Assembly (NCBI GenBank): GCA_002118135.1
Contig: BDIU01000215.1
Span: 1 to 64,000 of the forward strand
Direction of reading: 5' to 3'
DNA: 64,000 bases
Source of the DNA: Trebouxia sp. TZW2008
Taxonomy: Eukaryota; Chlorophyta; Trebouxiophyceae; Trebouxiales; Trebouxiaceae
Positions 32,701-63,800 of this stretch are shown piece by piece (positions within the stretch are counted from its first letter, which is position 1; the number at the start of each line of letters is the position of its first letter). Below the pieces are notes generated by a model. It had not been told where the DNA came from, did not search any database, and was given only the letters and a program-made list of their open reading frames with translations. The position numbers were made by a program, and so were the translations under genes.

Positions 32701-35700
32701 AAGAAGAGCAAGAGGACAGTGCGGCAGACAATGATGAGGAGGAAGAAGAAGAATCAGGGGCGGTGTAGACCATGACTTTCGAGGCTGACAGGCGGCAGAG
32801 ACCCACCAGGGGTGCCATGCTAGACCCCCTTTTCACACATGGCACGCTCTGACAACCATACTGTCATTTGCCACAGGAAGAAGAAGATGTAGATGCTGAT
32901 GAAGAAGATGATGAAGAGGAAGAAGAGGAGGAAGGGGTGGTGCAGCCCATGACACTGGAGGCTGACAGGCGGCAAGGACCCACCAGGGGTGCCATGCTAG
33001 ACCCCACGCTGCAGCAAGACCCCAAGCTCAGACTTGAAATTGGCATTTGTGGCAATACCAGACCTGATGGCACAGAAATTCTTGAGGCATGTCTCAATTA
33101 CCGTTTTCTTGTGCTCAGCTGTGCAAGATCTCCTTTACCTTTGATGCGGAAACACAATACATCCATAACATAAGTACAAATGGCTCAGAGGTCGTTGAAG
33201 CATGTTGCTTTCTGTCTCAATGGCCTCTGCTTCGGCTTGCGCGTACTTACTTTGTACACTCATGGCACAGTCCTTCGAGCTATGTCAGAATGCAGAAGTC
33301 AGAATGCACAAGGTATGCTTGAAGGTGTCCTTGAAGTATTTGGAGTAATATGACTCACCTGAATCAGATTGTTTGATCAATCTCGAGGTTATGAGGTGCC
33401 GGATTGTGCTGCTTTCCTTTTGTTGCGCCACATTAAATTGTTTGCTTCACCTCTCAACGTAGGTCCTGGATGTACAAAGCCCAAGTCTTGCCTTGAATAT
33501 TTATGCTCTGCCAAACAGTGACTGATGGTGTAAACGCTCCTGCAGCAGAACACTCGTTGCAGCCTTCGCTGCTGGCCATGTGTATACAATCATTCTGTAG
33601 GGCATGTGAGGTGTGCCTGCAGTACTGGCAAAGCACCACTTCGTGCTCGACATCTTTCTGAATTGTATTGTTTCTTGATGTTGTTTGGCTGCAGTTGTTT
33701 CTCATCTGGTTTTACAAGTCTGTGCTTTGCAACAACTCCAAAATCTTGTCCCAAAACAAAGCAAGGCCCAACGCTACAGACCTTTAGTCAGATTGCTCAA
33801 GCAATGTAGAAAGTGTTTTTGTTGCTGCAGATTGTGGCAGCGTCCGATTTGAAGGCAGGACAGGAGATCTTCAACACCTATGGTTAGTCATCCAGCTACA
33901 GTGTTCTTTCTTGACGTGATGGCATCCTACAAAGCAGAACTATCAACTGGTACTAGAGCTGTGAACATGGAAATATAAGCTCAGACACTAATGAGGTCAA
34001 AAGCATCACAGTGCACACTTTCATGTTGTATTGTTCAGCTTGTCTTTCCTTCTTTAGTCAACTGCTTCTGCTTTTTCAGCGATACCTACTTTCAACCAGG
34101 CCAAGCTTTCTATACAACTCTAGGCTGATTGGCGGCCGCATTGTGCATTTCAGCAATAGGCGTGTCTGTGCCAATATACATTTTGTTGTGAGGCATGTTC
34201 AACAGACCTTCCACGTTTGTACCTTCAAACAGCTTCTCTGATTCTGTCATCAACTAATTTATGTCCTGCCGCAAATGCTTCTTCTCCTGCTGCTGATTCT
34301 GCTTGTGTTGTCGCAACTTGTCTCTTGTCTTTTGTGCAGATAAGCACGCCACTGCTGAGCTGGTCAACAAATACAGCCTCGCCTTGCCAGACAGCCCCTT
34401 TGACGCTGTCAATGCTGTGTTTCTCTAATTGTTGTCGCTCTTCCTCTTCCTTTTCCTGGTCCTCCTCTTCTTCTTCATATGACTCAATCCTTTGTGTGCA
34501 GGTGAGCACGGCAATGCTGAGCTGGTCAACAAGTACGACTTTGCCTTATTAGACACCCCCTGTGAAGCTGCCAATGCTCTCTTCCTCTCATTGTTGTCGT
34601 TCTTCCTCTTCTTCTTATCAGTCCTCCCCTTCGTCTTCACACGAGCCATTGCTTTGTATGCAGGTGAGCATGGCTGCATTGGTCAATGACCAATGCTGAA
34701 TTGGTCAACAACCACGGCTTTGCCTTGTCAGACAACCCCTTTGACGCTGTCAACGCTGTCTCCCTCTCATTGCTCTACTTCTAACTCTTCTTCTTCTTTC
34801 CTGTCCTGTTTCTCTTCTTCACATCAGCCAACTCTTTGTATGCAGGGGAGCATGGCAACGCCGAGCTGGTCAACAAATACGGCTTTGCCCTGCCAGACAA
34901 CCCCTTTGACGCTGTCAAACTAGACAAAGCTAAGCTGGTTGCCATTGCATCAAGCACAGTTGGAGAAGCAGACTGTCAGCAGCGCTGCACATTCATGACC
35001 GACCAAAGGTGTGTTTGGTGAATCAAACAGTAACAACGATGCTAGAAACAGCAATCATGACTTACCTTTGGAAGCTGTCAGCTGCAACAAGGACAGTCTA
35101 TTTGCCAGTTACTTGCCATTGCGTCAAGAGCAATTGACGAGGAGGAGTTGCAATTGCTGCAGCTTTATGACAGACCAAAGTGCAAGGGCCACCAGAAAGA
35201 CCGCACAGAATGAGTAGATCTTTGAACGCTGTGAGATTCAACTTGAGGATATCGCCTGGTAGCCTGTCAGCCTGGTGGAGGACCCAGGAATTTTAAAGTG
35301 GGTTCCCGTGTGATGCCTGCAGCCACATACTGGAAGAGGACCTGGAGCCCTCTGAGTTTCTGCCAAAGGGCAGAAGCAGCCCTGCTCATGGCCCTGTGCA
35401 TTCGTATTTTCTGAGCCTCAAACATGATATAAGCCAATTTGGTCTCAGCAAACCCTTCACAACAACCATGTGTTGCTTGCAGCCACCTTTTGGAGGAAGA
35501 TTTGGAGCCCTTTGAGGTTTTGCCAAAAGGCAGAATCAACCCCTCCTTGTTGATGGCCCTGCGCATTCTTTTTGAAAGTCAAGCAATTTTCTCCACTTGG
35601 TCTTCCTGGGAAGGTGAGACCTGCTGTACATATATAGTCATCCTGACTGCTCTCAAGGCACCTTGGGTTTTTGTCTTATAGTTTTCATGTTGACCCTTGC

Positions 35701-40376: not shown

Positions 40377-43300
40377 TCATATTCGCAGGACGTCAGAAGA
40401 GGCGCTTGTTCTGGGGTTTGCACTGTCAAAAAAGCCTGCATCACAAAGCAAAAGTCTGTGATGAAAGCCTGTGGCAAATGCAACAATTGTTCAACCAAGC
40501 CATGAACTCTTTTCTGTCCCTTTGCTTTTCTGGATACAGAACAAGACTGCAAACACAAGGGAAGTTAGTCAGCAGAAATCTGCTGATATGCAGCTGATGT
40601 AATTAAATGCAGCAGTGTTTTCAATATGCCAATCACAGTGAACGGCTGTTGAGGCATCTGTCACATCAAAACCCATCTATTGCTCTGTTCATTGACATGT
40701 TGAAGGGAGAGGCCCTTTCACAGAGAAATTCTCCTCCAAAAAGAGAATACACAGAATGAAAAGCTGTTTTAGGTGATTTTCACCTGGTGAAGCAGGTCGG
40801 CCTACTGAAAAGGAACCCTGGCTGCCAGCAGAGCTTTGGACCTTGGGGAGTGCACTGTCAAAGAAGCCTGCAGCCACAAGTAGCTAAAGTCAAGCAAAAT
40901 TACAATGTCCAAGTTTGTTGCAAAGAGCTTGAGGCTGCTTCTGTTGTATTGTTTCAGGATAGTAACTTGTGCCCCTATGCCTAGTCACAACAGAGATGCT
41001 AGAGCAAATTTTCATCAGGATTGCAACGTTGACAGGAACCTGCGGAAGGCAACTCACTCATGTCTTGTTGATAAAACAGCAACAGGTGGTTTAGATTGAG
41101 AACAAAGAGCAGGACCAGATTGCATGCATGATTGTGCAAACATCAACATCATGAAGACCATGGTGCTGATGATCAACGTCATCAGCATTGACACAAGTTC
41201 TGGTGAGGCTCTACGACTGAGCTAGATGCACGAAAAGATGCCTCCAAAGCATCCTCTTAAAAAGCCATCTTGTGCCCGCAGAAACGAACGCTCACCTCTC
41301 ATGTGTCGCCATGAACACTCAGCAAGGCACTTCAAACTTGGATAGTGAACAGATCAGGCCTACGTAACAATGCATTGCATAGATGATGATGAGTACCTTG
41401 TCATGCAGGTCACCTGAATGGTGGAATGGCAGCTTGCATTCTTACCTGGATATTGACAGGAAGATAGCAGAGGCCATGCATGTGCGTGCATGCTCGGCAA
41501 TCAGACCAGATCCAAGTCAAGCAGTCATGCATTGCTTAGATGGCTGTGGCTACCTGGTCCAGATGCATGAACTGAACGACTCGATAGTCATGGCTTGCCA
41601 AGCAATGCATGACTGCTTGTTTTGGATCTGGTCTGATGCCCAACATGTCCATCTTTGGCAACAGTTGAGAGCAAGGCCACAATGCATTGCTTGAACTGGC
41701 ATAAGTACCTGGTGATGCAGGTCGGCCTGCTGAGAAAGAGCCAGTTTGCTGGGAAGGAGGACTCTGTGGTTTGGATGCACTGTCAAAGAAGCCTGCATGG
41801 ACCATGCTTTACTGGTTGCACATTGGGTATTAAACACAAGGCAAAAGTTGTGCTGGCTGCAATTGCAGCCATGTGACGACAAGACAATTGTCTGCTGGCA
41901 GCCATGTGACAAATAAGACGTATGCCATGGCATTCATGTGACTGATACCAGCTATGCACTGGCAGCCATGTGACAAGTAGCTGGCTATGCTGGCAGCCGT
42001 GAGACAAAAGCAGCCTAGTAACAGATACCAACTATGCGGTGACATCTATATGCCAAGCACAAAATATGCCATGGCAGACTAGGACAAGTGGCCACTAGGC
42101 AATGGTTGCCAGTAACAACAAGCAGCTGTGCTGGCAGCCACATGACAGACACAACTATACACTAACAGCCATGTGACAAGTCTGTTTTATGCAATGGCAG
42201 CCATGTGACCAACAGCAGCCATGCTGACAGCCATGTGACAGGGTTGACACATACGATGACAGCCATGTAACGACTACCTGGCGATGCCGGTCGGCCTCCT
42301 GAGTAAGACTGAGAGCTCGAGGTAGAAGGCCTCTCTGTCTTTGGGGACTGGCTGTCAAAGAAGCCTGCATCAGGAGACATGGCTTGACTAGCTGGCATGA
42401 CTGTGAAGGCTTGAGTATGCTAAGTGATACTTACAAAGAGAGAAAGTAGGTGAAACTGTGAACGCTGCCGTACCATGAATGATGATGTTGACACCAGATC
42501 AGACGGCAATGGCTGGCACACTTGTAAGTGGCTGCTGAAGACGGCAAATTTGCGTGCAGCATTCACCATTGGAGCAAGGAGTGCTGTCACGAGACTGTGT
42601 TGATAAGTCAAGGGTTACCTCCAGAAGATGCAGGGCGACCTCTAGAGTAGGAGGGGCGGCTGTCTTGCGCAGTTGCAGGCCTCTCTGTCTGGGGAGCTGG
42701 CTTGTCAAAGAAGCCTGCACGCACCATTTAGTCATGTGTCAAACATTGACATCAATGACCATCAAACCACTGGTCAGTGAGCTGCATAGAAGATGTAAGG
42801 ATGACTTGATACTAGACTACGTGTCATGTGACAGCCGAGCTTGCTGTACCAATGCCACAAAACAATGTCGTTCATTCATTCATTCATTCATTCATTCATT
42901 CATTCATTCATTCATTCATTCATTCATTGTAAACGTGGGCTAGGCAGGCTCAGCAGGCCCATCTCTGATCGTACAGTAGCAATCAACTGTCTGCAACCAG
43001 TCTGATCATGTGCTAACCTAGACCAACACAATGTGAGACATTGAAAGCTAGATAGCTATCATCTACTGGATTCACCCTGTGACATGAAAAAGAAAAGGAG
43101 CCGCTGTGCGTGGAAAGGGCCTGTGGCGTTGTAAGTACCCGGAGTCGCAGGTCGCCCTGCTGAGTAGGACTTGGGGCTTTCCTGCTTGGCAGCAGGGGCT
43201 GTTTTCCTGGGCCTGCCCCGCTTGGCAGGGGTCTTAGCAGGAGGGGCCTCTGGCTTTGGAGCAGGCTTGTCAAAGAAGCCTGCATGGATCACCAATTCCT

Positions 43301-46300
43301 TGAACATTACATGCTTTGATTGCTGAGGAGAACAAGGCGCTGTTCTGCTTGACAGCAGGGGCTGTTGTCTTGGGCCTGCTCCGCTTGGCAGGCGTCTTAG
43401 CAGGAGGGGCCTGTGGCTTTGGAGCAGGTTTGTCAAAGAAGCCTGCATGAAGCAGAACAAGGTATATTTGTCTGACTTTCACATCTTGAACACAAACTGT
43501 CCTTATGGCGACGCCCTGAACAATTGGCCTGGAGGGATAGGACTTGGGGCCACACACACCTAGCACATTTGCTGCGGCGTGTGACCATTTATTATCAAGA
43601 TCCATTTTGATCAAGCAAGGCTTGTAAAAGCATCCTGAATCAAATGATGGAGCTCAAGGTTTGGCAAGCAATGCGGACAAGCTTTGCATGCTCCCATGTC
43701 AAGGCGTTGTTACAGCAGTTCCCCATGAACAATGTCTTTGACATGTTCATGAGCTACTGCTGTAAGGTAGGTCCTGAGACTCACAGGAAAAAGGCCAACA
43801 CGGATGCCCCTCCAACACTCAATGTAAGTCTAATAAAAAGCGCTGTTATGCAGAAGGTGATGAGATTCAAGAAAGGCAGGCGGGTAATGAAGGTCAGGAA
43901 GCGCAGGCAGGCAATGAAGGGCACCAAAGCCAGCCAGGCAGTGAAGGTCAGGAGAGGCAGGCAGGCAAGAGGGTAGGGAGAGGCAAAAAGGCAGAAATAA
44001 AAAGATATCAACAATGAATTGCTGGAGGGTGGGATTTAAACTGGGGTCGCTGGTGTGAAAGATGGAGCATTTGTCTCTACAGGGTTTGGAGCGTGTTTGC
44101 AGTTGAAGGTTGTGATGTTTCTTGCGTCGCACATGGAACACCTCCTGCCGGTGCTGTGTGGAAGTGGCGCCCAACTAGGTCTGACAGCTGTTTTGCACAG
44201 CTGGCAAGACACAGTGATGAGTCAGTTGTCAAGCAACATTGCAGTGCAATGTATGCACCATTGTGAATGGACCATCAAGGCTACCTGGAGATGCAGGCCT
44301 GCCCCCTGTGCCCTGTTGGCTGGCAGTAGGGCTCTCTGTTCTAGGCGGCGCACTGTCAAAGAAGCCTGCATTAGCAAACTCATGCTCGACAAAAGCAGCA
44401 CATCCTGTCTGGTGGCGCACTGTCAAAGAAGTTCAATTGGCGAGCAGATGCTGGAGGTGACAGTGACAAGCTAAGCACAAGGACAAAGCCAGGGCTCACA
44501 CGAAACAATGCGTCAGGGAGACATGGACAGTACAGCGCAGACTAAGTCAGCAATGGTCTGGAGAATCAAAATCAACAGCAACAGCAGCAACGACGCAAGA
44601 ACCACACTAGCAACAGTGACAAGTATCTTGATACTGATGACTTTGCGATTACCTCCAGAAGATTGAGGGCGGCCTCTAGAGTAAGAGGGGCGGCTGTCTT
44701 GCGCAGTTGCAGGCCTCTCTGTCTGAGGAGCGGGCTTGTCAAAGAACCCTGCATTGACCATACTGGCAATCACTGCTGCAAGCATGGCTCAGATAGCATT
44801 CAAAACAATCTACTGGGTCTGGATGAACTCAGCAGCATCGCATAGCCTCACTAGCAAGCATGGAATGATGATGGGGATCATGATGACGGTGATTGCTGGA
44901 GCAACTGCATGAAAAGAGATGTGAACTTAAGGTCTGCCCAAATCAAGCAATCACACTGAGCTTTTGATTGATTGCAACATGGTGACAACAACATGATGTT
45001 CACCTGGTGATGAGGGTCGGCCTGCTGAGTAGCGTCCTGGGCTGTCCTGCTTGGCAGCAGGGCTCTCTACCTTTGGCGATTGACTGTCAAAGAAGCCTGC
45101 ATGCCGAACCTAGTTTCAACAAGTGGGTCTCAGGTGAGCTTTTGCCTCATTTTGGAGAAGCTGGCACCCACACGCAATGTGCATGAGTGTATTCACAGCT
45201 TTAAGCAAGCAGAAGAGCAGCAATCAGCAAGACTGAGCTGGGGCAGGGAGGCAAAGCTGGCAAATGAAGAAGAGCAGCACTTGAGGCAAATTGGAGTGAT
45301 GGCTGGTCATGTCAAAGTTTGCATCACCGACAGCAATTATAAAGTGCAGCTGCAACGATACACTTTTGAGCTTACCTCCTGAAGATTGAGGGCGACCTCT
45401 TGAGTAAGAGGGGCGGCTGTCTTGCGCCGTTGCAGGCCTCTCTGTCTGGGGTGCTGGCTTGTCAAAGAAGCCTGCAGCAGTCATTTTGCAGCTGAACACG
45501 CAAGCTTTGCTCGAGTCGTATTACTCCTGTGCTTGTCTGAGTGCAGCTTTGACAGCAGGCATGCGCATTGCAAGGCTTGGTAGTGTGCAATGTCCTGCAC
45601 GAGACTGAATGTGAACACAGTCCAGTAATGATAGGCAGTGCATTGCGCTGTACAGCTGTACAGGAAACGCTGTAGCAGTATACTTTAGACATGGTTATAC
45701 CTCCAGAAGATGCAGGGCGGCCTCTGGAGGAAGAACTGCGGTTGTCTTGCGCAGTCGCAGGCCTCTCTGTCTGGGCAGGCTGGCTGTCAAAAAAGCCTGC
45801 AGCAGGCATGCCAGCATCACGAATCAATCGTGCAAACCACATACATGAATACAGGTGCTGGTTCGAGTGCAAGTCTGACATTGCAGGTGAGCATATCCCA
45901 ATGCTGGGCAGTAAACAACTGTTTCCTTGCACACTCAGCGTAAGCTAAGGCACTTGAAGATGATGTGCAGCCGAGTACATGACAGAACTGTGCAGCAGTT
46001 TTGCGCAGGGTGATGCAGTAGCAGATACAGCTTGGGCTTACCTCCAGAAGATTGAGGGCGGCCTCTAGAGTAAGAAGGGCGGCTGTCTTGCGCCGTTGCA
46101 GGCCTCTCTGTCTGGGGGGCAGGCTTATCAAAGAAGCCTGTAGCAACCATCAGCCGCTAAGATCTTCACTTCTCAAGGCCATGTATGTCTGTGCTTCTGT
46201 TGTTGCTGACACAGCAAGATAGAACAACATTGCACTTCACACAGTAAAGAAAAACAGCGTTGTGAGGGCGCATTCAAGTGCCAGTGAATGAGGTGACCAA

Positions 46301-49300
46301 AGATTGAAAAGCGGGTCATTGTTGCAATATTTGGATAGCTGCAACAACATGACATGCTTGAGAGGGTGAGCTTACCTGGAGATGCAGGTCGGCCTCTTGA
46401 GTAAGACTCGCGGCTGTCCTGCTTGGGGATCTCTGGCCTGGCAGATGCACTGTCAAAGAAGCCTGCATCAACCAGTGAGTGACTTGAGCAAACAGTTGAC
46501 AGAGGTATCATCTGCCGGAAATAGATGTACATAAGTGGATGCAGATTTGAGCAGAGAAATATGCGGATAGCTGACACAGCAGTGCAAATGTAACAAAAAT
46601 AATGCCATGCTTGTCCCTGATGCAGATTGCCTTGGATGCATAGGTGGATGCAGTTTTGAGCAGCCTGATATTGTCAAATGAAGCGTTGACACAATCACAG
46701 AAGTGTATGAACAATGGCAGCATGCTTGCCGTCCTTTCACACTCACCTCCAGAAGATTGAGGGCGGCCTCTAGAGTAAGAGGGGCGGCTGTCTTGTGCAG
46801 TTGAAGGCCTGTCCGTCTGGGAAGCAGGCTTGTCAAAGAAGCCTGCATCAGCCATTGAGTGAATGTCAGTATGCACCATACAGACTAGGCCCTGTGTTGT
46901 TGAGCATGCAGGTATCAGCCCAGACAGACATTGCTGTGCATGACTGTTGACAGTAAGATGAGATCAGACACTTGCATCTACATGCAGCCAATTTTGAGGA
47001 AATCCTACAGCTCTTCATACCATGTCAACGCTGCGCATTGACTGGATTTCAGAGCCTATTTGCATCAGTTGCCCACAGCACAATTGTGCTACATAGGGTA
47101 TGGAATGCTGACGCGTCGCTCACTTGTAATCCGCCTACTCACCACTACCGACTACAAAGAACGTAAACAGGCAAAGCATGTCATGAAGCTGATGGTCCTC
47201 AAGATCAGTCTGCCTCATCAAAGAAAGCTCCCGACGCCTCCAAGACTTGTGCCTTCAAGACTTGAGGGTTTCAGGGCAGTCATTGCTAAGGGAAAAAATC
47301 CCAGCTCCAGTTGCTCAGCGCATATGCTGCACAATTCAGGATTATGATTGATGCAGTAGAGCGCTCAAAAGTCACCCTTGAGCTCTGCATGAGTCCCAGG
47401 CAAAATTGAGCGGTCTCAATCCCTTTGCAGCTTGAAGAGTTCACCAGGGCAAGGCTTGTTTGAAGGGATCAAAAGCGAATCTTGCTGCTTTGTTTGAGAA
47501 GCAAGGCAGCTTTCAGAACCATCTGCAAATAGCTGTTGGAATTACAGCCACTCCTAGATGACATCCAGCTGCCTTCAAATCATGCAGAGCAGGATGAGGG
47601 GCCTTCATCCTCTTCATTCGACACCGACACTGGACACAGTCATTAGACACGGCTATAGAGAGTCAGACTTGGGCAGGGGAAACTTGTTTTGCTGAGCCAG
47701 TTTTGATGATTCCCACCAGCTGCCTTCAACTTGTGCAGAGCAGCAAAAGCGTCTTGTAGCCCCTTTACTGTGAAAGAGCCTCAGTGTGCAAGACCTGGGG
47801 ACCTGAACACTGTTGTTGTTGAGACACACTCAAAGACATTTTGTAACAATCGTCTTCAACTTCTGGGCAGCAACAAGAGTGCCTTGCAGTCCCTGTGTTG
47901 TGTGAAGCTGTAACAGCGTCTTCAATATACGAGACTTGAGCATTTGAAGACTGTAATGCTGCCACAGATTAATAAATGATTTCTGCCAGTTATGAGGAAC
48001 GCAAGGATGGCTTTTCAAATCCTTGACTGTGTGTAGCTGAGGACTGCCAGTGTCCCAGACTTTGTGAGTTGAAATGACAACGCTGTGAGAGCTTCGTTTC
48101 CCCAACGCTGCAAGGACTTTGATCCGCGATGCTGTGAGGACTTGATTTTCCCCATCTGAACGCATTGCTGAGACAGCTCCCCGATGCTGTAGGTCTTATG
48201 TGCATGTTCACAACAGATTGCATTCAGCGTCACGAATTCAGCCTGGCATCATCACATGGGCGGGGGCAAGCTACATCAATGACGACAACAGCAACGATGA
48301 CTTTAACCATGTTTATGGCACATGTGCTAGGTGTGTGGGGCCCAGGTGCTATCAGGCCGGCTTGATCTGAGCAGTACTGTGAAGTCAGCAAGCCACATCA
48401 AACAAGTGCGCAACCAGCAAAGAGCTGATAGCTCAGGTGCCTCGGTGGACAAGATGGATTGTTGATACTGTCATTGTTTTCCAGAGTTGACAACACAGGT
48501 AGATGCGGCAAGCCGCTCACAGCACGGGCACAGCTATTATACAGCTGGTGACTCATGCATAGACGAGCCAAAATGGGTTGGTGACAACATCACCTTGACC
48601 TGGTGATGCAGGGCGGCCTCTTGAAGAAGACTGACGGCCTTCTATGTTTGCTTGAGCCTGGGCGTTTTGCACATCAGCATCACGTGGCTGCAACAGAGAC
48701 CGTCTCACATAGTACGGAGGCTTGATGGTTTCTGGATCAATGCCATCAGTCTGTGGCTTGCTCTCAGGCGCTTTGTCAAAGAAGCCTGCGTTGAATGTTG
48801 ATCAATCACAGGCTGCTTCTGCTTGCACAGAGTCCCGCTGTGACGTGCACAGTATAATATTTTCTTTTCCTTTGTGTTGTCACCCACTTGGGTCAACCCA
48901 CAGCAAAAAAGCACTCATGTGGGCGTTCCGCACAAACAGGAAGCCACGCAGAATATGTGGCGCCGTACGCAACATTGAATGTGGTGATTTGGGATTGAGC
49001 TGAAATGTGTAGTCATGCAGAGGCATATGTGACTTATGCTTGCGCTTTCAGTGTGGAAAAACACTCTACATACAAAAGTGGCAGGAGACAGCTTTTGCCA
49101 ATGGCAAAGGCCAGTTATAACACAGGCATCAGAACAATGATGGTCCAGACAACAAGGACCAGAACATCAGCGTGCCATGGTATCCTCAAGAGGCTAGATG
49201 GCATTACCAGCAGGATAAACGCTGTACCTGCATCTGTGTCATGCATGACTGTGATTCACAAAACTGTCTCAGTCAAGCGTGAAGCGGATGCAGGTAAAGC

Positions 49301-52300
49301 GTACATCCTGCAGGCTGTTGCAATCCAACCCCCCTATGAACATCATGCCAGGCTGATCGCTCTCCATTGTTATTTTACCATGATTGTTGCGCTGACGGTT
49401 GTTTGCTGGCACTGCTCAAAGTACAACAGCAAGAGCAGAGCACGATGGAACAAAGCGATAGACCAAAAATGTTTGAAAGAATCGAGGAAACGCAGACAGC
49501 ACTACTCAACCACATCTCAGGACACCATACATTGCAGGATGCCAAATTGCTCATGCTGTCATGGGCTACAGTGCAGTGAACGCACAGACTGCTAATGAGA
49601 GGACATGCACATATGCAAGTTGATTTCAGCGGCAAAGTGAAGCTTTCTATCCTTACCTGGTGATGCAGGTCGGCCTCTTGAGTAAGACTGGCGGCTATCC
49701 TGCTCTGTCCTAGCAGGTGCACTGTCAAAGAAGCCTGCACAAACAACCATCTAGTCAGGTGTAACCATGCCAAACAGAGCGCCCAAATGCACAGGAAGCT
49801 TAGTGGACGCAAATGCAGAAGAGAACGCAGAAACTTATCAAAGAGATTGAATCATATGTCAGGCATAATGAAAAATCAAAGCACTGCTGCGTTGCTGAGC
49901 GTTGCCAATACCTGGTGATGCAGGTCGGCCTGCTGAGTAGCGCCCAGGGCTTTCCTGCCTGGAAGGCTCTGACCTACTGTCAAAGTATCCTGCATTGACA
50001 GTGAGCTACTTAGGCTGAGAACAACTATCATTGAGCTAAGTAAGAGTTTGTGTATGCAGTGCATTGGCAAATGCGGCAAGCAGAGTATGCAGGTAGGCTC
50101 AGCAAGGGCGGTCTGTATCAAAGGCTGCATTGATCAAGACAGACTGATTGCAATGGCATGTTCACCTGGTGATGCAGGGCGGCCTCTTGAGGAAGACTGG
50201 CGGCTGTCCTGCTCTGTCTGAGGCGGTGCACTGTCAAAGAAGCCTGCACAGACAGTAACAAGTGCTCTGGACAACATCAGGGCAGACGTCTTGATTGCAG
50301 AGGCAAAGCACACTTGCAGCATGTCAGCAACAAGAATAGCAGTCAGCCTCTGACATGGTGAAAACAGATTGTTCTAGCAATTCTAAAAATGGTGTGAACA
50401 AATACCTCGTGTTGCCGGCCGGCCTGCTGAATAGGACCTGGGACTCTCTTGCTTTGGCACTTCTGTCCTAGGAGGTGCACTGCCAAAGAAACCTGCATTT
50501 GCCATGAGCTGATCACTTTGCACGTGTGGAGCATGACTTGTTGTCATCAGACAACAAGTGATCAGTAGCAAAGGACAAGTAAGGCTAATGATGAGGGGGA
50601 AGATCACTGCCCGAGATCTCCGTGACAAAGCAAATGTCATCTGCGAGAGAACCAGTTGAGAGAACCAGTGGTACAGAATACTGCAGCAGGATTGATCTCC
50701 ATCAAGCGCTACAGCTATACTCAAGACAAAGCTGAGTGGTGAAGAGCATTAAATCTAAATAATGCAGTGGCAAGGCAAATGTTTGCTGCCCAAGAGTAAG
50801 TGGTGAAGAAGATTGCAGCAGGATCTACAACTATGCTCAAGACAAGTCAGTGGGCATACCCTGTGACGCCTGTCGGCTTGCTGAGTAGGACTCAGGCCTC
50901 TCTTGCTTTGGCAATTCTGTCCTAGGAGGTGCGCTACCAAAGAAGCCTGCATTGGCATGAGCCTTTCAGACCACTGAGCGAAGGTGGGAAGCCAAGGTGC
51001 AGTCATTGCTTGCGCACACGACAGTCGGAGGATTGCAATGGAGGGAGAGGTGTGTCTGCATGAATGTGGCCACTGAAAGGCTGTCTTGGGTCACAATGTT
51101 ATGCTCACCTTGTGATGCAGGTCGACCTGCTGAGTAGGACTGGGGCCTTTCGCGCCTGGGCACCTCTGTTCTAGGTGGTGGGCTGTCAAAGAATCCTGCA
51201 GTGACACGTCCCCTTGTCAAACTGGAGGGAAAGAGCTCCATGCAGTCTTGCCATGTTGTCGGGCCTGTACATAAGGCCTTGCACCGCAGAAGTGGTACAA
51301 GAAGTGCAGCAGACATGCAGTTGACCATGCCCACAACGTGTGATGCCACCACCAAACTCAAGAGTTGCAAGCGACAACGTTGCCAGGTGAATTGTTACCT
51401 CGTGATGACCGCCCTGCTGAGTAGGATTGAGAGCTGGAGGAATCTGTCCTAGCAGCAATGTTGTCAAAGAAGCCTGCAGCAATACTTTATCAATCAATGT
51501 AGCGTATATGGACTCCAGAAACTGTAAGCTTCAGGGACTCCACTCAGCGAGAACAAGAGCAAGTGTGTGTGATCAAATATGACTACAGATCACAGGAAGT
51601 GAGCTGGCTACAGGGTGAAAAAATTTTGCATGAAATCAAACCGCAGGACATCTGGTTCAACTGTAAGAATAATATCCTCAGGGTTAGCTACTGTGCAGAA
51701 CTGTGCCCTAGATCATTCAAAGGAGATCTGAACGCCAAAGTGTTGCTTGCAGCATGGCTGTCAGTTCACGCAGAGCTGAATGTAACGCAAAGTGAGCAGC
51801 CGTGCTGAGCGAGGCAATGAGCCCACCTTGAGACGGAGATGAAGGGCGACCTGCTGAAGGGATCTCTGTCTTTGGAACTTGCGTGTCAAAGAAGCCTGCA
51901 TGCACTCCACTTTGTCAGGTGTAACTTGGTCAGGTGTAACTTGATCAGGTGTAACTTGGTCAGGTGTAACTTGGTCAGGTGTAACTTGGAAGCTTTCACA
52001 AGACTGATAACTGCAATCAAGGGTGTCTTGAGAGAGCAGCAGCAGTGAGCAGCCAACAGTGCATGGTAGAAAACGTATATGCATCATTGGTGCTATTGTG
52101 ATCATCACCTGGCGTTTTGGGCCGTGCCGCTGCATATGATTTGATTGGTGCTGGCCTTCCTGGTGTGTACGGCCTCTTTTGATCCTGTAAACAAACAGAT
52201 GGCTCTTCACCAAGTTCATGCCAGGCTCACAAGAGATTTTCATCAGATTTCCAAAAAGCTTCAGTTTTGGACAAGGCAGAATTCAATGCACGGCCATTTG

Positions 52301-55300
52301 CATTTGCCAAGTCGGTCTGCAGAGAGACGCAGCAATTGTGTCCAGATGTGGTCTGATGCCTTCAGAAACCAAACACAAAGGGTATTGCATGCACAAAAGA
52401 TTCAGCATGGCCTTTCTAGGAGAAAAGCAGAAGGTGTGTACAGCAGCACGTCATCATCAACAGTCATGCTGAGTCGTGACAATGCACAAACACGCTACAA
52501 TCTGGAAAAAGCTCTTCAAACAACAAACTTGTTCTGACAACCTCCTGCACAAGCTGCTGCTCGTCAGAACAAGCATAACACACATCAGTTTGCAAAGATC
52601 TCATGCAGCTCTGCAGGGTCTGTCATACACAAGAATAATGATAACGATGAGACACCAACAAAATAATGGCGACGGCAATGACAATGACAGTAACCTAAGC
52701 ATAAGACTGCACACAGCAGCTGATAATGCAGGTCATGAGCTGACCTCTGGTCCAAGCGCCTTCCTTATGTCCCTGACCTGCCCCTGGAAGTAGAGGAATG
52801 CGCCTAGGCCACCAACCAGCACAGCAGCAAGCGCAACCTGCATTTGCATAAGAAGGGTCATACCATTGTCGATCACCTTGTTGGTGTGCTCAGGTCTACA
52901 GCATTGAGCATTGAATGTGCATTATACTTGACTTGTCTGAAGGTCAACCAAGCAACAGATGCAGACCAGGACAGCAGCAAGCACAGCCTGCATGTGTGAC
53001 AGCATTTGTACTAATTTGGTGCACAAGCATGGCAGCAGACACAGCAGCAAGGACAAGCTGCTACATGCACAACAGATGACATGGGACACATTGCCTGCAT
53101 GTCAGGCAAGCAGTGGATGGAAGTCTGAGTGCATGACAGACTGCTGTGCAGAGCGCCTGCAGCCTCCAGTCAACCCTGACATTTGCCTGACTATACCTGT
53201 TGAGTAATGGCTTCAACTTCACAGCACTCCTGACAGCTGCTGAGTGAATGGTAGACTGTACCTCTTGGGTGATAGCTTCAACTCCCTGCTTGGCCGCCCT
53301 GAGTGACTCCTGCCCAAAGAAGTCAGCCTTGCCCTGTGCATCTTGCAGAGTAGCAGCTGCCTCCTTCTCTGCCCGGGCAAACGCTGCAGCAGCTTCCTTT
53401 TGCGCCTTTGACCTCTCTTGCTCTGCTTTGCTGGATGCTTCCTTAGCTGTCCGGATTTGCTCCGTCTGCTGCTTGGCCTACACAACAAGAAGACTTTGAG
53501 TGAAGCATCATGTTTCAGTGGCTGCACGCCTTTGCTTGCTGCTTTCGTAGCCATTGTGTCTGCTGCTTTGCCCACGAACTTTGACAAATGTGACCAAGAG
53601 ACCACAGTCTGTTGGCTGTGCGAGTTTGCTCTGTCTGCTGCTTTGCCTACACAGCAGGGAAGAATTGATTGAAGGGTCATGTTTATGTGGCTGCTCGCCT
53701 TTGCGTGCTGCTTCCTTGGCTGTTGTGTCTGCTGCTTTGCCCAACGCAACAGCTTGAGCCCATAATGTGCAGCAATGGGCGATAAGTGCCGTAAATATTG
53801 TATCGCCGTAAACATTGGTGCCGTCAATCAACACTATGGTGCAACACTTACCATGGCACAACAGATCAAAGAGCAAGTTCTGAAGCTGTGCTGGCTTCTG
53901 ACTGTTGCTCGACAAGCAGTGTTTTCATGCGGCTTGCTGCATGCAACATAATAGATCGTCGAGCACTGTGTCAAACGCGCAATGCATGCATGAGGCGTCC
54001 TGTGGAGCAAGTTGTCAAGCAAGCTTGCTCTTGGGAGTTCAATCAACAGAAAGCCTGTTGCAACAGAATTGGGTATGGCATTCAGTACTTTGCTCCACCT
54101 ATCCAGCACTGGGCTGAATTTCAGTCCTAGTTAACACAAAGTGGTGCACCATCTGTCACACTGCCTTACCGTTTTCTCAGCAGCTTGCGTAGCGCTGTTG
54201 GCCTTTTGCAAGCGGTTGAGCACATCTTTCTGCTGCTTAGAAATCTTGTCTGCATACTCCTGGGCTTCCTTGACAATTGCATCTGCTTCCTTCTGCGCCT
54301 TTGAAACCATTGCAGCAGCATCAGACTGGGCCTTAGATTTGGCATCTGCTGCTGCCTTTGCTGCTTGCTCCGCCTGCCAAAGATACACTTGTTGGTGCTA
54401 TGAGACCACCAATGACATGCTACAAGTGGTGTGCAGCCGCATGTGCACAAAATTGCAAATCCTGACATTTATCTGCACTTGGAAGGCAAGGTTCAGGCAT
54501 GACAGTGAGAGGTGCAGACAGCTGGCTGTGAGGCACTACGACAAAGCACAAACGGGCTTGCACATGACAAATAAGGGTGATGAATGGCTGACACAAGTAA
54601 GCAACCTCTCCTGTGCAAGCCGCGCTTGTGCCCTGCTGAAAAGTATGCAGACAATGGTCAGACCAGCAAGCGCCTCTTCGAGCACAAACACACCAATGCG
54701 TAGGCACCTACCTTGTGATTGTCAAATACTGATGACTCAGAGTGCGTGTAAGCAAAAAGCTGTGATTTCGCAGGTGTTGTGGAAACAATGCATGCAGGCA
54801 TGGAAGCTCCGTTCCTGAGGCATTGTGACTGTCTTTGCAAGGTCTGCACAGACAGCAATCAAAACAAGTGCTAGTGCATGAAAATTTGCATGCGTGCACA
54901 GACCTTCTGCCTCTCAGGTTGTGTGGCTGTCTCTGGCAAGTCTCTCTGCTCTTGAGCCAACTGAGATGCTCTTGCCTCCGCTTCTTGCACGGTCGAAGCC
55001 GCCTCCTTCTCTGCCTTGGTTACTGCTTCTGCTGCTTTGGATTGCGCCTCTGTCTGAGTCCTGGACTTCTGGTCCTCTGCCTCCCTGACTGCTTGCTGAG
55101 CATTCTGCAAACAGAGTTGCACCCATGTCAACACAGATGCACTGTGAGATGCTGCATTTTGCTAGAGTCCTGGCCTTCTGATCTCCTACCTGCTTCACTG
55201 CTTGTTGAGCATTTTTCAGGAAGGGACACACTTATGCAGCAACAAAGGCTGAAAGTGTTTGATCAGACATGGTGCAAATGCTGCATCCAGCGCTGTGCTT

Positions 55301-57936
55301 TTCTGTCCTTCTGACTGTTGAGTCTGCATGCAACAGTTGATGTTCAGTGCATGGAATTTTCTGCCTTGGCTGAGGCTTCTGCTGCTTTGGCCTCTGCTAG
55401 GCCACGACTATGCTAGGGTCTCAGCGTTCTGGTCTTCTGCCTCCCTTGTTGCTTGCTGGGCACGCTGCAGATATGCTTTCAGGTATTCTGAGCACTGCAT
55501 GATGCCGACAGGTCAGGACAAGCCACTCTGCTGACAGCCAACAGGATGTGTTTGGCGTAGTCAAGAAGGCCCTTTGACAGACAGGCCTGACATGAACCGA
55601 CGGTGAGTTTGGCATTTGATGACAATTCTGTCAGCAACACGTAAACAGTGGTGACTTGGGGCATCAAAGACATGGTCATATTGGATCAGTATAACAAATC
55701 TCCCCAGCCTTACATGACACCAGAGGTACCTGCTGACATGCTGACAGAAGATGCAACACAGAGCTGCCATGCTGCATTGTAGGATCATGATGCCACAAGG
55801 CAGCACCCCTGATTAATTGATCACTTGTCACTGACCTGCTCAATCTGTTGGGCCTGTGTCTTTTGCTCATTCAGCGTTCTCAGCAAATCATCTAGCTCTT
55901 TGTCAAGGCGACCCAGCGCCTGGCCTTGCTCGCGGGCAATTCTGGCTGCATTGGACTGCGCCTCTTGAACAATGCCCGCAGCCTCTCGCTTTGCTCTGGC
56001 AACTGTGGCAGCAGCTTCAGACTGTGCTTGATCCCGATCCTCTTCCAGCTTCTTGGCTGCTGCCTCAGCTTGCCGAATCAGGTCCAGTTGCTCCTGTGCC
56101 TGCGTGTATGCAACCGCACGATATGTATGGATGCATAAGACCAGAGCGTAAGCGCTATGCTCAATGCTTGGTGATGCAAGCATCAAATTTTCAGCACTTG
56201 TAGGCTGCTGCTAGTCATTGCAAGCTTTTGGAGATAAGCACTGACAAGAAAAGAGCACCAAGTCGATCTTGATCAATTTGAAACAGTCAGTGTGTTGAGC
56301 TTGAGCTGCAGAGTGGCATGTTTGCAGCAATAGGAGCTGCTAGGCAACAACTGTATTACTGCATAGTGACACAGTCATCCCTTCTAGCCTCTTGGGGGGC
56401 ACAGCAGCTCTGCGCCAGACCTGGACATAGGTCGTGCATAAAGATCTTGGTAACCAGATCAGAATTGCTGAGAATGGTACAAACATGTGCTTCGCACCTG
56501 CTGCTGGGCAGGTTTAGTTGCCTGCTGGGCCTGCTGTTGCTGCTCCTTGGCCAGCTTGTCTGCTTTGGCTTGAAACTCCTGAAGAGTTGCCACTGCATTG
56601 CTCTCTGCCTTGGCCAAAGCTTCTGCTGCCTGAGCTTGAGCGTCTGCCAGCGCTTTAGCCCTTTGATCCTCAGCATTCTTTACGGCTTGTTGACTTTCCT
56701 GCAAGAAGTTAAGCTCAGTTGAGACATCATGTTCGAACTGTCTCTGGCATACATTGTTTCACCTTGATGCCCAAGCCGATGTGTCTGATGATGTGAGATA
56801 GCTGAATCAAAAAGCCAGTAGGAAGATGCTGCAGAAGGGTGGAAGAGCATGATTGGCAAAAGCAGCATGTCATTCTGTTTGCTTTCAAACACGCAGCTGT
56901 CTCATCTTTCGCATCACGCTTGCAGTGATGGCGCCAGTGCAAGTTGGCAGAGGCCACGCTTTGATAACAGCACACTAAAGCCACCAGACTCCTGATGCAA
57001 AGACGTGTCCATTACCCTTTGAAGCCTCTGTGCCGTGTTCTTCTGTTGATTGAGCGCTTTCTGTGAGTTGTCCAGCTGCTTCTGTAGGCGGCTCATGATG
57101 TCTGCCTGCTCTGCTTGCTGCGCAGCTGCACGCGCCAGCTGTGCTTCAGGTCCTTGACGTCTTCCACTCTGCAATTGCAACATAGTACAGGTCAGCAACG
57201 CATGGTGCCTCTTTTTTAATTTCTGGGTGAAATTGCTTTGCGTACACGCATCAAATCGCAAAATGGCAGTCACAGCCCATTGCAACATCTTTCAAATGGA
57301 GCTCAGAAGCTTACACAATGATGCTTGAGTGGCAACTCTTGAGGAGCAGTGAGCAAGATCTGGTTCAAACACTCAAAAAGCAAGGGCAGAGGCCAACAAG
57401 CGCTGCACCACGAGGGCTCACCCCGATGTTGTCGGCCAGATCAGAGAGCGCTGGACCATCCTGCCGACGCGACTGCAGAAGTTGCTGCATCTCTGTCTCG
57501 ATGTCTCCTGACTGAGTCCTGCTGAGTGTAGCGCCAGCTGCCGTCGCACTGGGTACAGACGCCACCTGTAATAAGAATTCACATTGCATGTGCTGAGACT
57601 GGCCAATGATGTTAGCTTGGAAGGTAATCCCTGTGCTGGCTTTAGCGAAGCATGTCATGCTGCAATAGCTCAAAACCTTCGAACGGGTGACTCCTCGATT
57701 TTTTGACTCACCATAGCAACGCTGGCCAGCACTGTCCAAAACACTTGCAATGCGCTTTGCGGATGTTTAGGCTGCGGGCTGTCATTGTTTGTCTTAGAAC
57801 AGCGGGTCACCAAAACACCATGCCCGGGCAGTCTCTGTTCTGGCCGAAATGATGCGCATCGACGAACGCCAAACACCTGGCGGCAGCGTCCCTGACCGCG
57901 CACCAAACACAGCTTTGGCGTCAATGCGAACGCCAT
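40377..57936 (-). CDS. Novel 34-exon coiled-coil / membrane-anchored GFFD-repeat protein, probably plastid, 1341 aa
   Basis: Unrecognised. Exons 1-10: 57936-57712, 57565-57422, 57168-57016, 56698-56498, 56099-55836, 55104-54904, 54373-54170, 53477-53262, 52837-52745, 52184-52109. Then 24 repeat exons, the last at 40435-40377 with TGA. All phases agree. The N terminus (about 1-60) is basic with almost no acidic residues, as in a transit peptide. A hydrophobic stretch ALQVFWTVLASVAMVASV (62-79) followed by SATAAGA could be a lumen-targeting signal or membrane helix. Residues 124-536 are Ala/Glu/Gln/Lys-rich coiled coil, in five exons of 201-264 bp that look duplicated. VALAAVLVGGLGAFLYF (537-553) is a membrane helix. 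From 593 on, 24 units follow, each starting GFFD and ending S-x-G-R-P-x-S-P. The units are Ser/Pro/Arg-rich, net basic and predicted disordered. The architecture suggests a tethered multivalent scaffold; location and partner are unknown. Confidence 0.88.
41870..42262 (-). repeat. Interspersed array of a CAGCCATGTGAC element in a GFFD-gene intron
   Basis: About ten copies of 'cagccatgtgac' or one-base variants at irregular 20-60-bp spacing, many preceded by 'ctggcag' or 'gatga'. The core contains CATGTG. It fills most of one intron and is not an echo of the flanking exons. Confidence 0.75.
42869..42928 (+). repeat. (ATTC)n microsatellite, ~14 perfect units
   Basis: Perfect tetranucleotide run inside an intron of the GFFD gene. 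Its perfection points to recent expansion. Confidence 0.98.
43840..43990 (+). repeat. Purine-rich imperfect repeat ('aggcaggca' / 'atgaaggtcaggaag')
   Basis: Two to three ~45-bp units of 'gcaggcaggcaatgaaggtcaggaagcg'-like sequence in a GFFD-gene intron. Open in one + frame as a Lys/Arg-rich peptide, which is a compositional effect. Confidence 0.6.
46843..48599 (-). repeat. Large (1757-bp) intron of the GFFD gene with a ~160-bp repeat family
   Basis: The longest intron within the repeat-exon array. Between about 47380 and 48150 five related segments (near 47420, 47575, 47735, 47875, 48030) share 'cttcaa-tngtgcag-gcagcaa' and 'ccttgcagtccc-tgtgttgtg'. On the - strand they read as variants of T-V-K-G-L-Q-x-x-L-x-A-L-H-K-L-K. 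No complete exon with both splice sites in phase 1 was found. Confidence 0.5.
51905..51986 (+). repeat. 16-bp minisatellite, 5 copies, next to a repeat-exon acceptor
   Basis: Five head-to-tail copies of 'gtcaggtgtaacttg(g/a)' in the intron immediately upstream (- strand sense) of exon 51895-51827, only ~10 bp from the acceptor. It therefore replaces or contains the polypyrimidine/branch region of that intron. Confidence 0.9.
52930..53075 (-). repeat. Echo copies of the membrane-helix exon acceptor
   Basis: Two short copies (near 52955-52990 and 53030-53070) of the acceptor and start of exon 52837-52745 ('accagcacagcagcaagc'). They lie on the acceptor side, as elsewhere. Confidence 0.7.
53490..53760 (-). 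repeat. Echo copies of coiled-coil exon 8 acceptor
   Basis: Three copies (about 53555, 53635, 53730) of the acceptor and first ~25 bp (A-K-Q-Q-T-E-Q) of exon 53477-53262, spaced ~80-95 bp and lying upstream in transcription. A donor-side echo of the same exon is at 53195-53240. Confidence 0.85.
55150..55480 (-). repeat. Two dead copies of coiled-coil exon 6
   Basis: 55380-55475 reads R-A-Q-Q-A-T-R-E-A-E-D-Q-N-A then stops at a TAG. 55155-55225 is a shorter, more decayed copy. Both precede the intact exon 55104-54904 and resemble its first third. Confidence 0.85.
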
Positions 57937-59552: not shown

Positions 59553-59861
59553 AGGCAGATAAGTGCATGATGTCAGGTGCATAAGCAGGAGCATGTGTTT
59601 CTGCAACAGGGTGGACAAGAAGCTGCATGCAACAGCTGCTTCTGAAGCAGCAACCAGCAGGCACTCCACAATCTCCAGCTCACATTTCCAAGGCAACATG
59701 CTGCTAACACTGTGACAGCTGCTGTGAACGCGTCAGCTGCTTTGCACAACTATTTCTGCTTCTGGTTAGTCTCCAGCATATCTCTGAATGTATGATGGCC
59801 AGGGTCCAAAGTGACATGCCTAAGCAGTGACTGCAACTAAGCAAGGCGACTCGCTGTGCAT

Positions 59862-59986
59862 TCCACGCTGTGCATTCCATGCTGTGCATTCCTTGCTGTG
59901 CATTCCACGCTGTGCATTCCTTGCTGTGCATTCCACGCTGTGCATTCCACGCTGTGCATTCCTTGCTGTGCATTCCACGCTGTGCT
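59862..59986 (+). repeat. 14-bp minisatellite, ~9 copies
   Basis: Head-to-tail 'gctgtgcattccac' units alternating between an 'acgc' and a 'ttgc' ending. Open on both strands as Cys/Ile/Pro- or Asn/Ala/Gln-rich peptides by periodicity alone (14 bp is not a multiple of 3). Confidence 0.97.
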
Positions 59987-60479: not shown

Positions 60480-60895
60480 TGTAGCGAGTGCGTGAAGCCG
60501 ATAATAGCGGAAGCGGCGTCTCTAACGTCAGGCGCGCACGTGAAATGGCGGCTTTCTCGCATGCTGTAGTTAAATGCACGGCGGACGTGCAGAACTGAGC
60601 GGCGGCCGTGGCAGTCAAAGCGCCATTGGAAGCACGCTGAAATCAGAAGCAAACGTAACTTGCAGTCGCCGATCTGCGGAAGTGCGCGGAAGATACCGCG
60701 TTTGTCATGCGTTACGAGCAGACATCGCTATCTGCAGCGGGGATGTCATAGGTCGTCGGGTGGGTTGAAGAGCGGCCATGCATGATCACTCAAGCTGAAA
60801 GCTGAGGAGTGCATAGCCGCAGCGAACAGACATCGCGGGCAGTCTGATGTGTACAGTGTCATGAGAGGTTGACAATGTTGTAGAGCGAGTGTGCA
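60480..60895 (+). promoter_or_regulatory. CpG-rich promoter/5' leader of the amino acid permease gene
   Basis: Dense CpG (for example 'ggcgcgcacg', 'agcggcggccg') from about 60480 up to the start codon at 60896, in contrast to flanking DNA. No TATA box recognised. Confidence 0.5.
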
Positions 60896-63800
60896 ATGCA
60901 ACCCGAATGGGGCTTGGAGTCATTTGGACGTTCTCTATCAATAGGTCAGGCGAGCAACTCGGGAAAAATAACCTCGCGGGAACGGCACATATCTCTCGAC
61001 GGCTCTTGGGAAGATGGCGCATTGCAATCGATCGTCCTGGCCGGCGCAAATGACCAGCCTTTGCCCGACGTTGACTCGACACTGCCGGCAAAGTTCCACT
61101 CTACGCCACATGTACAAGAACACCGCACAGGTATGTCGCCACCGTCGCCACTCGACATTGCCTGCTACATTGCGGCAGCATCTTTTGCGCGGCCACCGAC
61201 ACCATCCAACGGCTCTATAGTCCTCCGTGGGTCTGCGATGGATTCTAGGCTGGGTGCTTGGCAAGAAACCACCAACTGGTCTGCAGGCACTTGGCTAACT
61301 GCAACAGCCCACATCATCACTGCCGTCATGGGATCAGGCATTTTATCACTGTCATGGAGCATCTCCACCATGGGCTGGATTGCTGGACCAGCCATACTCT
61401 TGAGCTTTGGTGCGGTGACTTGGTACATGTCGCTGCTGCTGGCAGATGCATACCGGCATCCTAGAGACACAGGGCCACGGAACAGGACGTACCCAGAAGC
61501 GGTGCGAGCAATCTTGGGTGATTACTGCATTACCACAGCATGCACTGATGTGGATGGCAGTAATAGCTGCAATCGAAAATGCTGGTCTAACAATCAACTT
61601 TGGCATATAGATTGCTCTCAATGCAGTGTTAGCATGCAGCAACTATAGACCTCAGACATGTTTGCGCATTATGAAACAAGAATGCGGCAAATACAGCCTG
61701 TGAAGCAAAATCTTGCATTGCGTTTGACTTCTGCTGAAGTGTCCAAGGCTACAGGACACATATGTAGAATGTGGTCACCTTTGACACAATCATCATCATT
61801 ATGGCAGGCGCAGCGCATGCATTCACACCCACTCTTCATGCCCACTGCATTGAGGAGCAGACACATGTCAAGCACCGCAGAACAGTCCGTATGTATTATG
61901 CAACTGCATTTGAAAAAGCACAAAACCTCATGCCTGATCTGCTGTTGTAACTGCTTTTCTACAGGTGGCAAGTATGTGTACTTCTGTGCTACAGTGCAAT
62001 ACATGAAGCTTGTAGTCATAGGCATCGGCTATACTATCACCGCAGCCATAAGCATGGTGTAAGTCTTCTGCTCACACTGCATTGCTTGCTGAGTAGCGCA
62101 GCAGCATGTGTCTGTATACAGCCAAGCGACTGTACATGCAAGCCTCAATTCCCAGGAGCATGTGTCTATGCACATCAGCTGTGTGCAACAAGTCTGCAGC
62201 TGTTTCCACTGTACATGAATGTCAGCAGGCAAAAGCATCAAGCAATGCTGTGCTTGCTCAGCGTCCTTGCTCAGCATATCTCCAATGTACTGCAAACAGC
62301 CTTGTGCCTTCCAGATAGCTTCATCCACTCGACATTGACTTTTGTTGAAGATGTGGATAACTGTCTTCTTGCCTCCATGATCAAGCTTTGTAATGCCATA
62401 TGATTGCATTGCAGATTTGCAGAACATGTCAAGTGGAAAAAACCTTTGTGCATTTCAGGGCTGTGCGCAGAGCCAGCTGTCTTTATTCAAAAGCAGAGGA
62501 AGCAGCTGTTGCAGAAGCTTCTGGGGGCATCATATGTCAGGTGATCATCTGACATTGCTTACATGTATATAAGCACAGCACAACACTGGTGTACGTGGTG
62601 CAATGTGCTTGCATGTATGCATATGCCTGACTCGTCTGTTGGAGCCATTGCAAGTACGGGCCAATGTGCTTTTGCATGGAAGTGTTTGCAGTACTGACCT
62701 GTGACCAACATGCGAATCCCAGCACAATGAACGACATGGCATGTTGTTGTAGAGCAAGCTACATGATTCACGTCTGCCAGGCAACCAGACTTATTCATGA
62801 TCAGCCAGGCAAGGTCAAACGCAAGCATCGTTTGACCAAGCGGCAAATTCTGCTGCAGGTGTCCAACAACCCATACATGCTAATATATGGCGGCTTCCAG
62901 ATCATTCTCAGCCAAATCCGCAATCTTGATGAACTCTGGCTGGTGTCAACATTTGTCACCCTAGTCTCTTTTGCCTATTCTGCCATTGGATTTGGCTTGG
63001 CTGTGGGCAAGACCACAGGTAAAGCTAGGTTTTCATTTCCACTTACTAGCTGTGATGTGTTGCCTATTATGTCGTGGTTGAGTCAACATCTTGGGCTTAG
63101 ACGCTGTACGCTGGAGTAAACAACAAGGACATGCATCCTGCTAGTGCCTACATGACTTTGCTGTATGCTGTGTTGTGCTTGTCCAGGAATGCCGGCTGCT
63201 TTACCCCAGAATGTGTTGTTACTTGCTGTGCTGTGCTCTGCATGCTGCTCTGTGCTCTGCATGCTGTGCTCTGCATGCTGTGCTGTGCTCTGCATGCTGC
63301 AACTGTTTTGTGCGGTCCTACATGCCGTGTTATGCTGTGTCATACGCGCATGGCATGACCCGCTGTGCCACAAGATGCATGCTATTGCATGCTGGGCTAT
63401 GCTTGGCGTGCTGTGCCATGCCTTGATTTGATGCCATGTGATTTCAATGTTGCTGCTTGCCAACAATACTGACGTCTACAAATCAAACTTGACGTCGCAG
63501 AAAGTGATCACTCAACAGGCTCAGTTGGAGGCCGCAGCTACGCTCCAGCTTCCAAGGCATGGGCTGTCATGACGGGATTGGGCAGCATGGCGTTTGCATT
63601 TGAATTTTCAGTAGTGCTTGTGGAGATACAGGTACATCTGTTGAATGAGTCACAGACACCATGCTTTCAAACAGTCAGCACACCAGCTTTGTGGCTTTGT
63701 TCTGGCATCCTGACTGCACGAGGGGCATGCTGCAGCTGCATGCTTGCTAAAGCTGGTACTTGCTGGGGCTTTGTGCTTGATCAATTGCATGGCCATTCTT

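Follow-up and report, generated by a model that had tools for sequence, protein, structure and literature searches.

Two genes of Trebouxia sp. TZW2008 share a multivalent motif: candidate membrane and starch tethers of a plastid condensate

In Chlamydomonas, one Rubisco-binding motif is common to EPYC1, RBMP1/2 and SAGA1/2, and through it the matrix, the membranes and the starch are tied, or have been proposed to be tied, to one another; in the excerpts of the two studies drawn on here, the motif is reported from the Volvocales only (PMC10473226, PMC13167743). The authors of the SAGA study speculate that other algae could have combined carbohydrate-binding domains with a Rubisco-binding motif of their own (excerpt of PMC13167743), and whether the Chlamydomonas type of logic exists in other algae, written in other sequences, is an open question (excerpts of PMC13167743 and PMC10473226). 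In searches of the FLIPPer type, elements that recur every 20–120 residues serve as a criterion for seeking Rubisco linkers (excerpt of PMC11570498). The pair of genes described below offers a concrete candidate, at the level of sequence, for such a logic.

The first gene lies in the window, by which we mean the whole stretch of 64,000 nucleotides that was analysed, and which belongs to the contig called C207 below. From its sequence model we take this gene to be real: it runs on the minus strand from the ATG at 57936 to the end of the TGA at 40377, exactly as in the initial annotation, and comprises 33 exons and 1297 codons. All of its introns (32/32) are GT-AG; exons 1–9 are in phase 0, each with a length divisible by 3, exon 10 ends in phase 1, and the full repeat exons are of phase 1-1 in 22 cases out of 22, the phase consistency claimed at the outset holding across all 33 exons. 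The continuous model also stands, but not its count of 34 exons and 1341 codons, which equals the present model plus a GFF exon of 44 codons (43311..43442, minus strand); this exon is without the SYSxGRP half, has a weak donor (CAT/GTAATG), resembles a degenerate copy of exon 43279, and is probably skipped or dead. Elsewhere in the window, a neighboring gene at about 32040–35010 (plus strand) resembles SETD6 or a Rubisco methyltransferase by eye (Pfam SET, E 0.076 for a hand-joined piece, below the cut-off), an exon at 9522–9998 (minus strand) matches ArsA_ATPase (E 5e-21) and is presumably GET3-like, and another at 60884–61645 (plus strand) matches the amino-acid transporter family Aa_trans (E 1.5e-20); there are also a 14-base tandem array of 9.6 copies at 59852–59985 and a TTCA microsatellite of 14.5 copies at 42871–42928.

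Exon 1 (57712..57936; all coordinates of this gene are on the minus strand) holds the ATG, a basic N terminus resembling a transit peptide, and the first part of a hydrophobic segment at residues 61–79, which exon 2 (57422..57565) completes before continuing with SATAA and the start of a helical region. With nine basic residues and one acidic residue among the first 46, the N terminus would serve as a transit peptide for plastid import, and the segment 61–79 together with SATAA (an AxA site) looks like a lumen-targeting signal. Exons 3–8 (53262..57168; individually 57168–57016, 56698–56498, 56099–55836, 55104–54904, 54373–54170 and 53477–53262), all in phase 0, encode a long, charged, Ala/Gln-rich helix of about 450 residues, approximately one third of the protein. 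Exon 9 (52745..52837) contributes a membrane helix, VALAAVLVGGLGAFLYF, which starts at residue 537 and has basic residues behind it, and exon 10 (52109..52184), which passes from phase 0 to phase 1, a basic linker with the first half motif, SYAAARPKTP, at its end. Where a single membrane helix had been described there are two hydrophobic segments, at residues 61–79 and 537–555. In the 20 residues on each side of the membrane helix, five Lys or Arg follow it versus two that precede it, and because of this bias and of the lumen-signal-like segment with SATAA, the topology would be that of a lumenal rod with a stromal tail.

The rod has a hydrophobic period of 3.60, against 3.5 for a heptad coiled coil, which places it nearer to a straight helix bundle; of the long coiled coil first proposed, the long helical region remains and the heptad period does not. 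Folded alone and with no alignment, exon 5 was predicted as one unbroken helix (pLDDT 97.7), and a pattern of the type AAxxVxxAxxEAAxxVQEAQxxA is, by eye, common to rod exons 4–8. An intron stretch at 55408–55464 (minus strand) resembles coil exon 6, also by eye, and contains an in-frame stop; if it is a dead duplicate of a coil exon, the rod too would have grown through exon duplication. Pfam gave no family in residues 1–567 (E≤0.1), and for residues 559–1297 nothing up to E 10, a search in which the filters drop most weak matches.

After the basic linker comes a tail of 705 residues, encoded by 22 full repeat mini-exons of phase 1-1 (40784..51895) and a last exon (40377..40435) with the terminal half unit, GFFDSANPRTSASSDVLRI, and the stop codon. 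The full repeat exons lie at 51895–51827, 51473–51399, 51195–51109, 50946–50860, 50492–50406, 50243–50166, 49989–49912, 49734–49657, 48785–48600, 46842–46747 and 46462–46376 (first to eleventh), and at 46137–46042, 45796–45701, 45471–45376, 45096–45004, 44748–44653, 44365–44285, 43279–43139, 42714–42619, 42364–42278, 41792–41709 and 40867–40784 (twelfth to twenty-second). Since the units abut, the closing GRPASP of one and the GFFD of the next form a contiguous motif over each junction, S-Y-S-x-G-R-P-A-S-P-G-F-F-(D/G/P/N)-S-A-P-P-R, of 19 residues, and a phase-1 intron cuts the codon of its central glycine at 23 such junctions, the position being identical in every unit, as had been noted. The motif in the form of separate opening and closing parts was therefore dropped; the residues suggested for the sticker, F-F-D and/or G-R-P, are retained, but are better regarded as parts of one uninterrupted sequence, SYSxGRPASPGFF(D/G/P/N)SAPPR, than as two ends apart from each other.

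The remaining claims about the units were correct in kind and needed correction in number: the repeats are there, but instead of 24 units there are 22 full exons, a terminal half unit and the degenerate exon, giving 23 motifs; the G-F-F-D opening has D in 21 of the 23 and G in the other two, with one GYF; 19 of the 22 full units, not all of them, are net basic; and the unit length of about 25–60 residues compares with a measured motif spacing of 23–62 (median 29). At six of the 23 junctions an extra residue precedes GFF, so that the first half is shifted by one. The protein has 13 occurrences of the pattern GRPx[ST]xG[FY]F, which did not arise once when the tail was shuffled 2000 times, and GFF is the best conserved part of the motif. 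The spacers are rich in Ser, Pro, Gln and Lys, a composition by which the tail would be disordered. Along eight successive exons (44285–46842, minus strand), units of K-type (GFFDK) and S-type (GFFDS) alternate, a pattern that points to duplication of blocks of two exons. Among 5.39 million papers searched, supplements aside, none contains any of six peptide strings from the motif, and of the papers listed on pyrenoid linkers or the CCM in Trebouxia, Trebouxiophyceae and Chlorella, none names such a protein in its title.

When two real units were compared with the 68.5 Mb assembly (E≤1), the 26 listed matches fell in two genes, 18 in the window gene (C207) and eight on contig C166, and with two more unit queries (E≤10) all of the 35 and 24 listed matches were again in these two genes; a near-reversed decoy query had 0 matches. 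These searches score only the best candidates, such that single weak motifs elsewhere could escape them, and among the matches listed from the 68.5 Mb there is no third gene with the motif, for example a soluble matrix linker; as the queries carry the motif uninterrupted, an intron-less copy should have shown up. Three other sites of a 15-base exon-start pattern, on contigs C62, C269 and C423, were rejected as chance, the surrounding 9.9 kb being free of units in every case.

The C166 gene is modeled from sequence on the plus strand at contig positions 155529–167127, with 23 exons and 806 codons; GC-AG borders mark two of the 22 introns (the first and the last), and its first two exons, which encode the transit-like N terminus (13 basic residues and one acidic in 75), are the least certain. 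Residues 88–174 form a CBM20 domain (PF00686, E 1.4e-13, 50.9 bits, cut-off 23.3), whose relatives of known structure are cyclodextrin glucanotransferases and glucoamylases (best E 3.1e-8), and its Trp117 and Trp159 align with the GSWD and WEGG tryptophans of the cyclodextrin enzymes, which we take to be starch-site residues. NCBIfam gave nothing for the N-terminal 241 residues. Then come 17 motif junctions, at intervals of exactly 31 residues in 14 of 16 cases (range 22–37), in a tail that by composition would also be disordered, and a C-terminal region with scores below the cut-offs for Rho_N (E 4.2e-4, 20.7 bits, cut-off 24.9) and SAP (E 0.011, 15.8 bits, cut-off 23.9). CBM20 exons are also present on contigs C244, C376, C112 and C74, with no repeat units among the matches listed there. 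Protein-database searches gave no relative of either protein, an absence that says little, as the database perhaps contains few algal proteins and its word list fills up with repeats; the window protein was represented by an approximate version of 869 residues, with 10 of the 22 full units, one unit omitted and two extra Gly.

That the two sets of repeats are related does not depend on the unit searches alone. When a profile was built from the 23 junctions of the window gene, with background composition from both tails, 16 of the 17 C166 junctions scored higher than anything in 500 shuffled versions of the C166 tail; a profile-profile comparison of the unit alignments gave E 1.2e-17 (over 18 of 22 window units and 16 of 17 C166 units), and in both genes a phase-1 intron lies at the same glycine. 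The simplest reading is that the repeat exons of both genes share one origin. Apart from this shared motif, the membrane protein and the starch-binding protein look unrelated.

The 32 residues encoded by exons 46137, 45471 and 44748 are identical, with 7–8 synonymous changes and 0 non-synonymous changes between any two of them, while 100-base stretches of their adjacent introns have 52–58% aligned identity, at or slightly above the chance level, which 288 random 100-base pairs from the window put at a median of 50% (5–95% range 45–55%). Among six window repeat exons compared, pN is less than pS in 15 of 15 pairs, as it also is in all 91 pairs that can be formed from the 14 C166 units with 31 residues; in the latter, mean pN/pS is 0.35 and 0.38 in the two motif parts and 0.51 in the spacer, with the motif the more constrained. 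Given differences between exons that are only synonymous beside introns near chance, the repeat exons are very probably translated and under selection.

A skeptical reading would be that these are a non-plastid or unrelated pair of structural proteins, or that the model fuses two genes. This we consider improbable, in view of phases that are consistent over 33 exons, of the basic N termini of both proteins, and of the CBM20 domain, which fits the plastid, the site where green algae keep their starch. Another possibility, to which we give very little credence, is a nucleoid tether, in which both proteins would bind plastid DNA, the window protein by GRP or AT-hook-like cores in its tail and the CBM20 protein by a C terminus that resembles Rho_N/SAP. 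The unit at 43139–43279 (minus strand) has an insert with KRGRPRK, an AT-hook-like core, and this KRGRPR and the weak C166 scores given above would agree with such a tether; on the other hand, RGRP occurs 11 times in the window tail and three times in that of C166 with basic flanks in one case, and the best conserved part is GFF. With basic flanks at that one site only, and no Pfam match listed in the tail up to E 10, the AT-hook reading of the repeats was rejected.

In our opinion, and by a narrow preference, the motif would be a lineage-specific docking motif, or sticker, for a condensate in the plastid, and this condensate would most likely be a pyrenoid's Rubisco matrix, with the window gene as its membrane tether and the C166 gene as its starch tether. 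The CBM20 domain and the transit-like N terminus, in the only other gene found with the motif, point to a plastid with starch, and one multivalent motif in both proteins implies that they should share a partner in the stroma, the compartment in which starch lies. The membrane-tethered, multivalent plastid scaffold first proposed from the window gene gains independent support from this second gene, and can be considered supported in part. The window protein would be brought in by its transit peptide, and its lumen-targeting-like segment would probably carry the helical rod into the lumen; one membrane helix would leave the disordered tail in the stroma, where 23 stickers would join the matrix to the pyrenoid thylakoid. 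In the C166 protein, CBM20 would hold starch or starch primers, and its 17 stickers would bind the same matrix. With forty copies of the motif spread over two proteins, a single abundant partner such as Rubisco suggests itself; by analogy, Rubisco would be the common one, and the alga would presumably possess a pyrenoid. Against the pyrenoid stand the nature of the sticker, Pro/Gly rich versus the helical stickers of CsLinker and EPYC1, and the lack of a soluble linker with the motif among the matches listed from the 68.5 Mb. A search of the genome for LCIB was empty, but equally so in a control genome, and it carries no weight either way. The RbcL of this alga is closest, within the PDB, to 8q04, the Chlorella Rubisco of PMC11570498; in the alignment of the two, Tyr97 of Chlorella, a residue of the CsLinker pocket, is replaced by Phe97, and Glu51, Asp86 and Ile87 are conserved.

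The best rival to the pyrenoid tethers is a starch-granule initiation complex without Rubisco, similar to that of MFP1 and PTST2 in Arabidopsis: the membrane protein would mark a site on the thylakoid, the CBM20 protein would bring primers, and the repeats would bind each other or a common partner (for example, a starch synthase), gluing the starch to the thylakoids. We regard it as unlikely, although deserving of attention. Repeats rich in Tyr, Phe and Arg could indeed self-associate, but we know of no tandem motif shared by MFP1 and PTST2, and the number of copies that suggests an abundant partner such as Rubisco also counts against it. The carbohydrate-binding module of PTST2 is CBM48, not CBM20. 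The coiled-coil protein MFP1, bound to the thylakoid, positions the plastid starch-binding protein PTST2 (excerpt of PMC10801857), and the window and CBM20 proteins would be a pair of the same kind; the SAGA authors, moreover, note the similarity of SAGA1/2 to both MFP1 and PTST2 (excerpt of PMC13167743). The order of domains differs, however, since the membrane helix of MFP1 is N-terminal and its coiled coil stromal (excerpt of PMC10801857), while here the helix lies between rod and tail; the window protein does have an N-terminal hydrophobic segment (61–79), but also a second helix after the rod, and a repeat tail.

Returning to the pyrenoid tethers, and going further, an alga outside the Volvocales may have evolved its own pyrenoid motif code, in which tethers of 17 and 23 copies might condense Rubisco without an EPYC1-like linker, and the rod may be lumenal and shape the tubules; this extension, built on sequence and analogy, is proposed only tentatively, as something we would doubt sooner than affirm. 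If true, the logic of a shared motif would have arisen more than once, and efforts to engineer plant pyrenoids complete with membranes and starch could draw on its parts.

In comparing this pair with the known systems, the motifs have first to be distinguished. The pattern [DN]W[RK]xx[LIVA], which we take to be that of the Chlamydomonas Rubisco-binding motif, has 0 matches in the window and C166 proteins, neither repeat tail having any Trp, and KWSP, presumably the PYCO1 motif, is absent from both proteins. With EPYC1 and CsLinker they have in common evenly spaced motifs, a chain judged disordered by its composition, and the spacing of 20–120 residues, within which both the window gene (23–62) and C166 (22–37) fall; EPYC1 and CsLinker differ in that their repeats have short helices, and neither a membrane helix nor CBM20 is mentioned for them in the excerpt (PMC11570498).

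As for the membrane side, the window protein, with a hydrophobic helix and more positive charge on the side of the motifs, may be of the RBMP type. BST4 is a bestrophin-like protein. The likeness lies in a membrane protein that bears the motif, RBMP1/2 being proposed to bind the matrix to the tubules, and the difference in that RBMP1 is this same BST4 and RBMP2 has a rhodanese domain, whereas the window protein has 23 motifs and no Pfam family listed; closer to it in shape is Cre03.g172700, which combines four motifs with a long helix (excerpt of PMC10473226). On the starch side, SAGA1/2 unite CBM20 and Rubisco-binding motifs (excerpt of PMC13167743), just as the C166 protein unites CBM20 with a motif common to a membrane protein, but the motif of the C166 and window proteins is unrelated in sequence to that of SAGA1/2, as judged by the pattern given above; SAGA1 has two copies of its motif and the C166 protein 17, together with a Rho_N-like C terminus and no long helix evident by eye. 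The C166 protein fits, by analogy, the alga that the SAGA authors imagined, with a carbohydrate-binding domain and a motif of its own, and the window protein would be its partner at the membrane.
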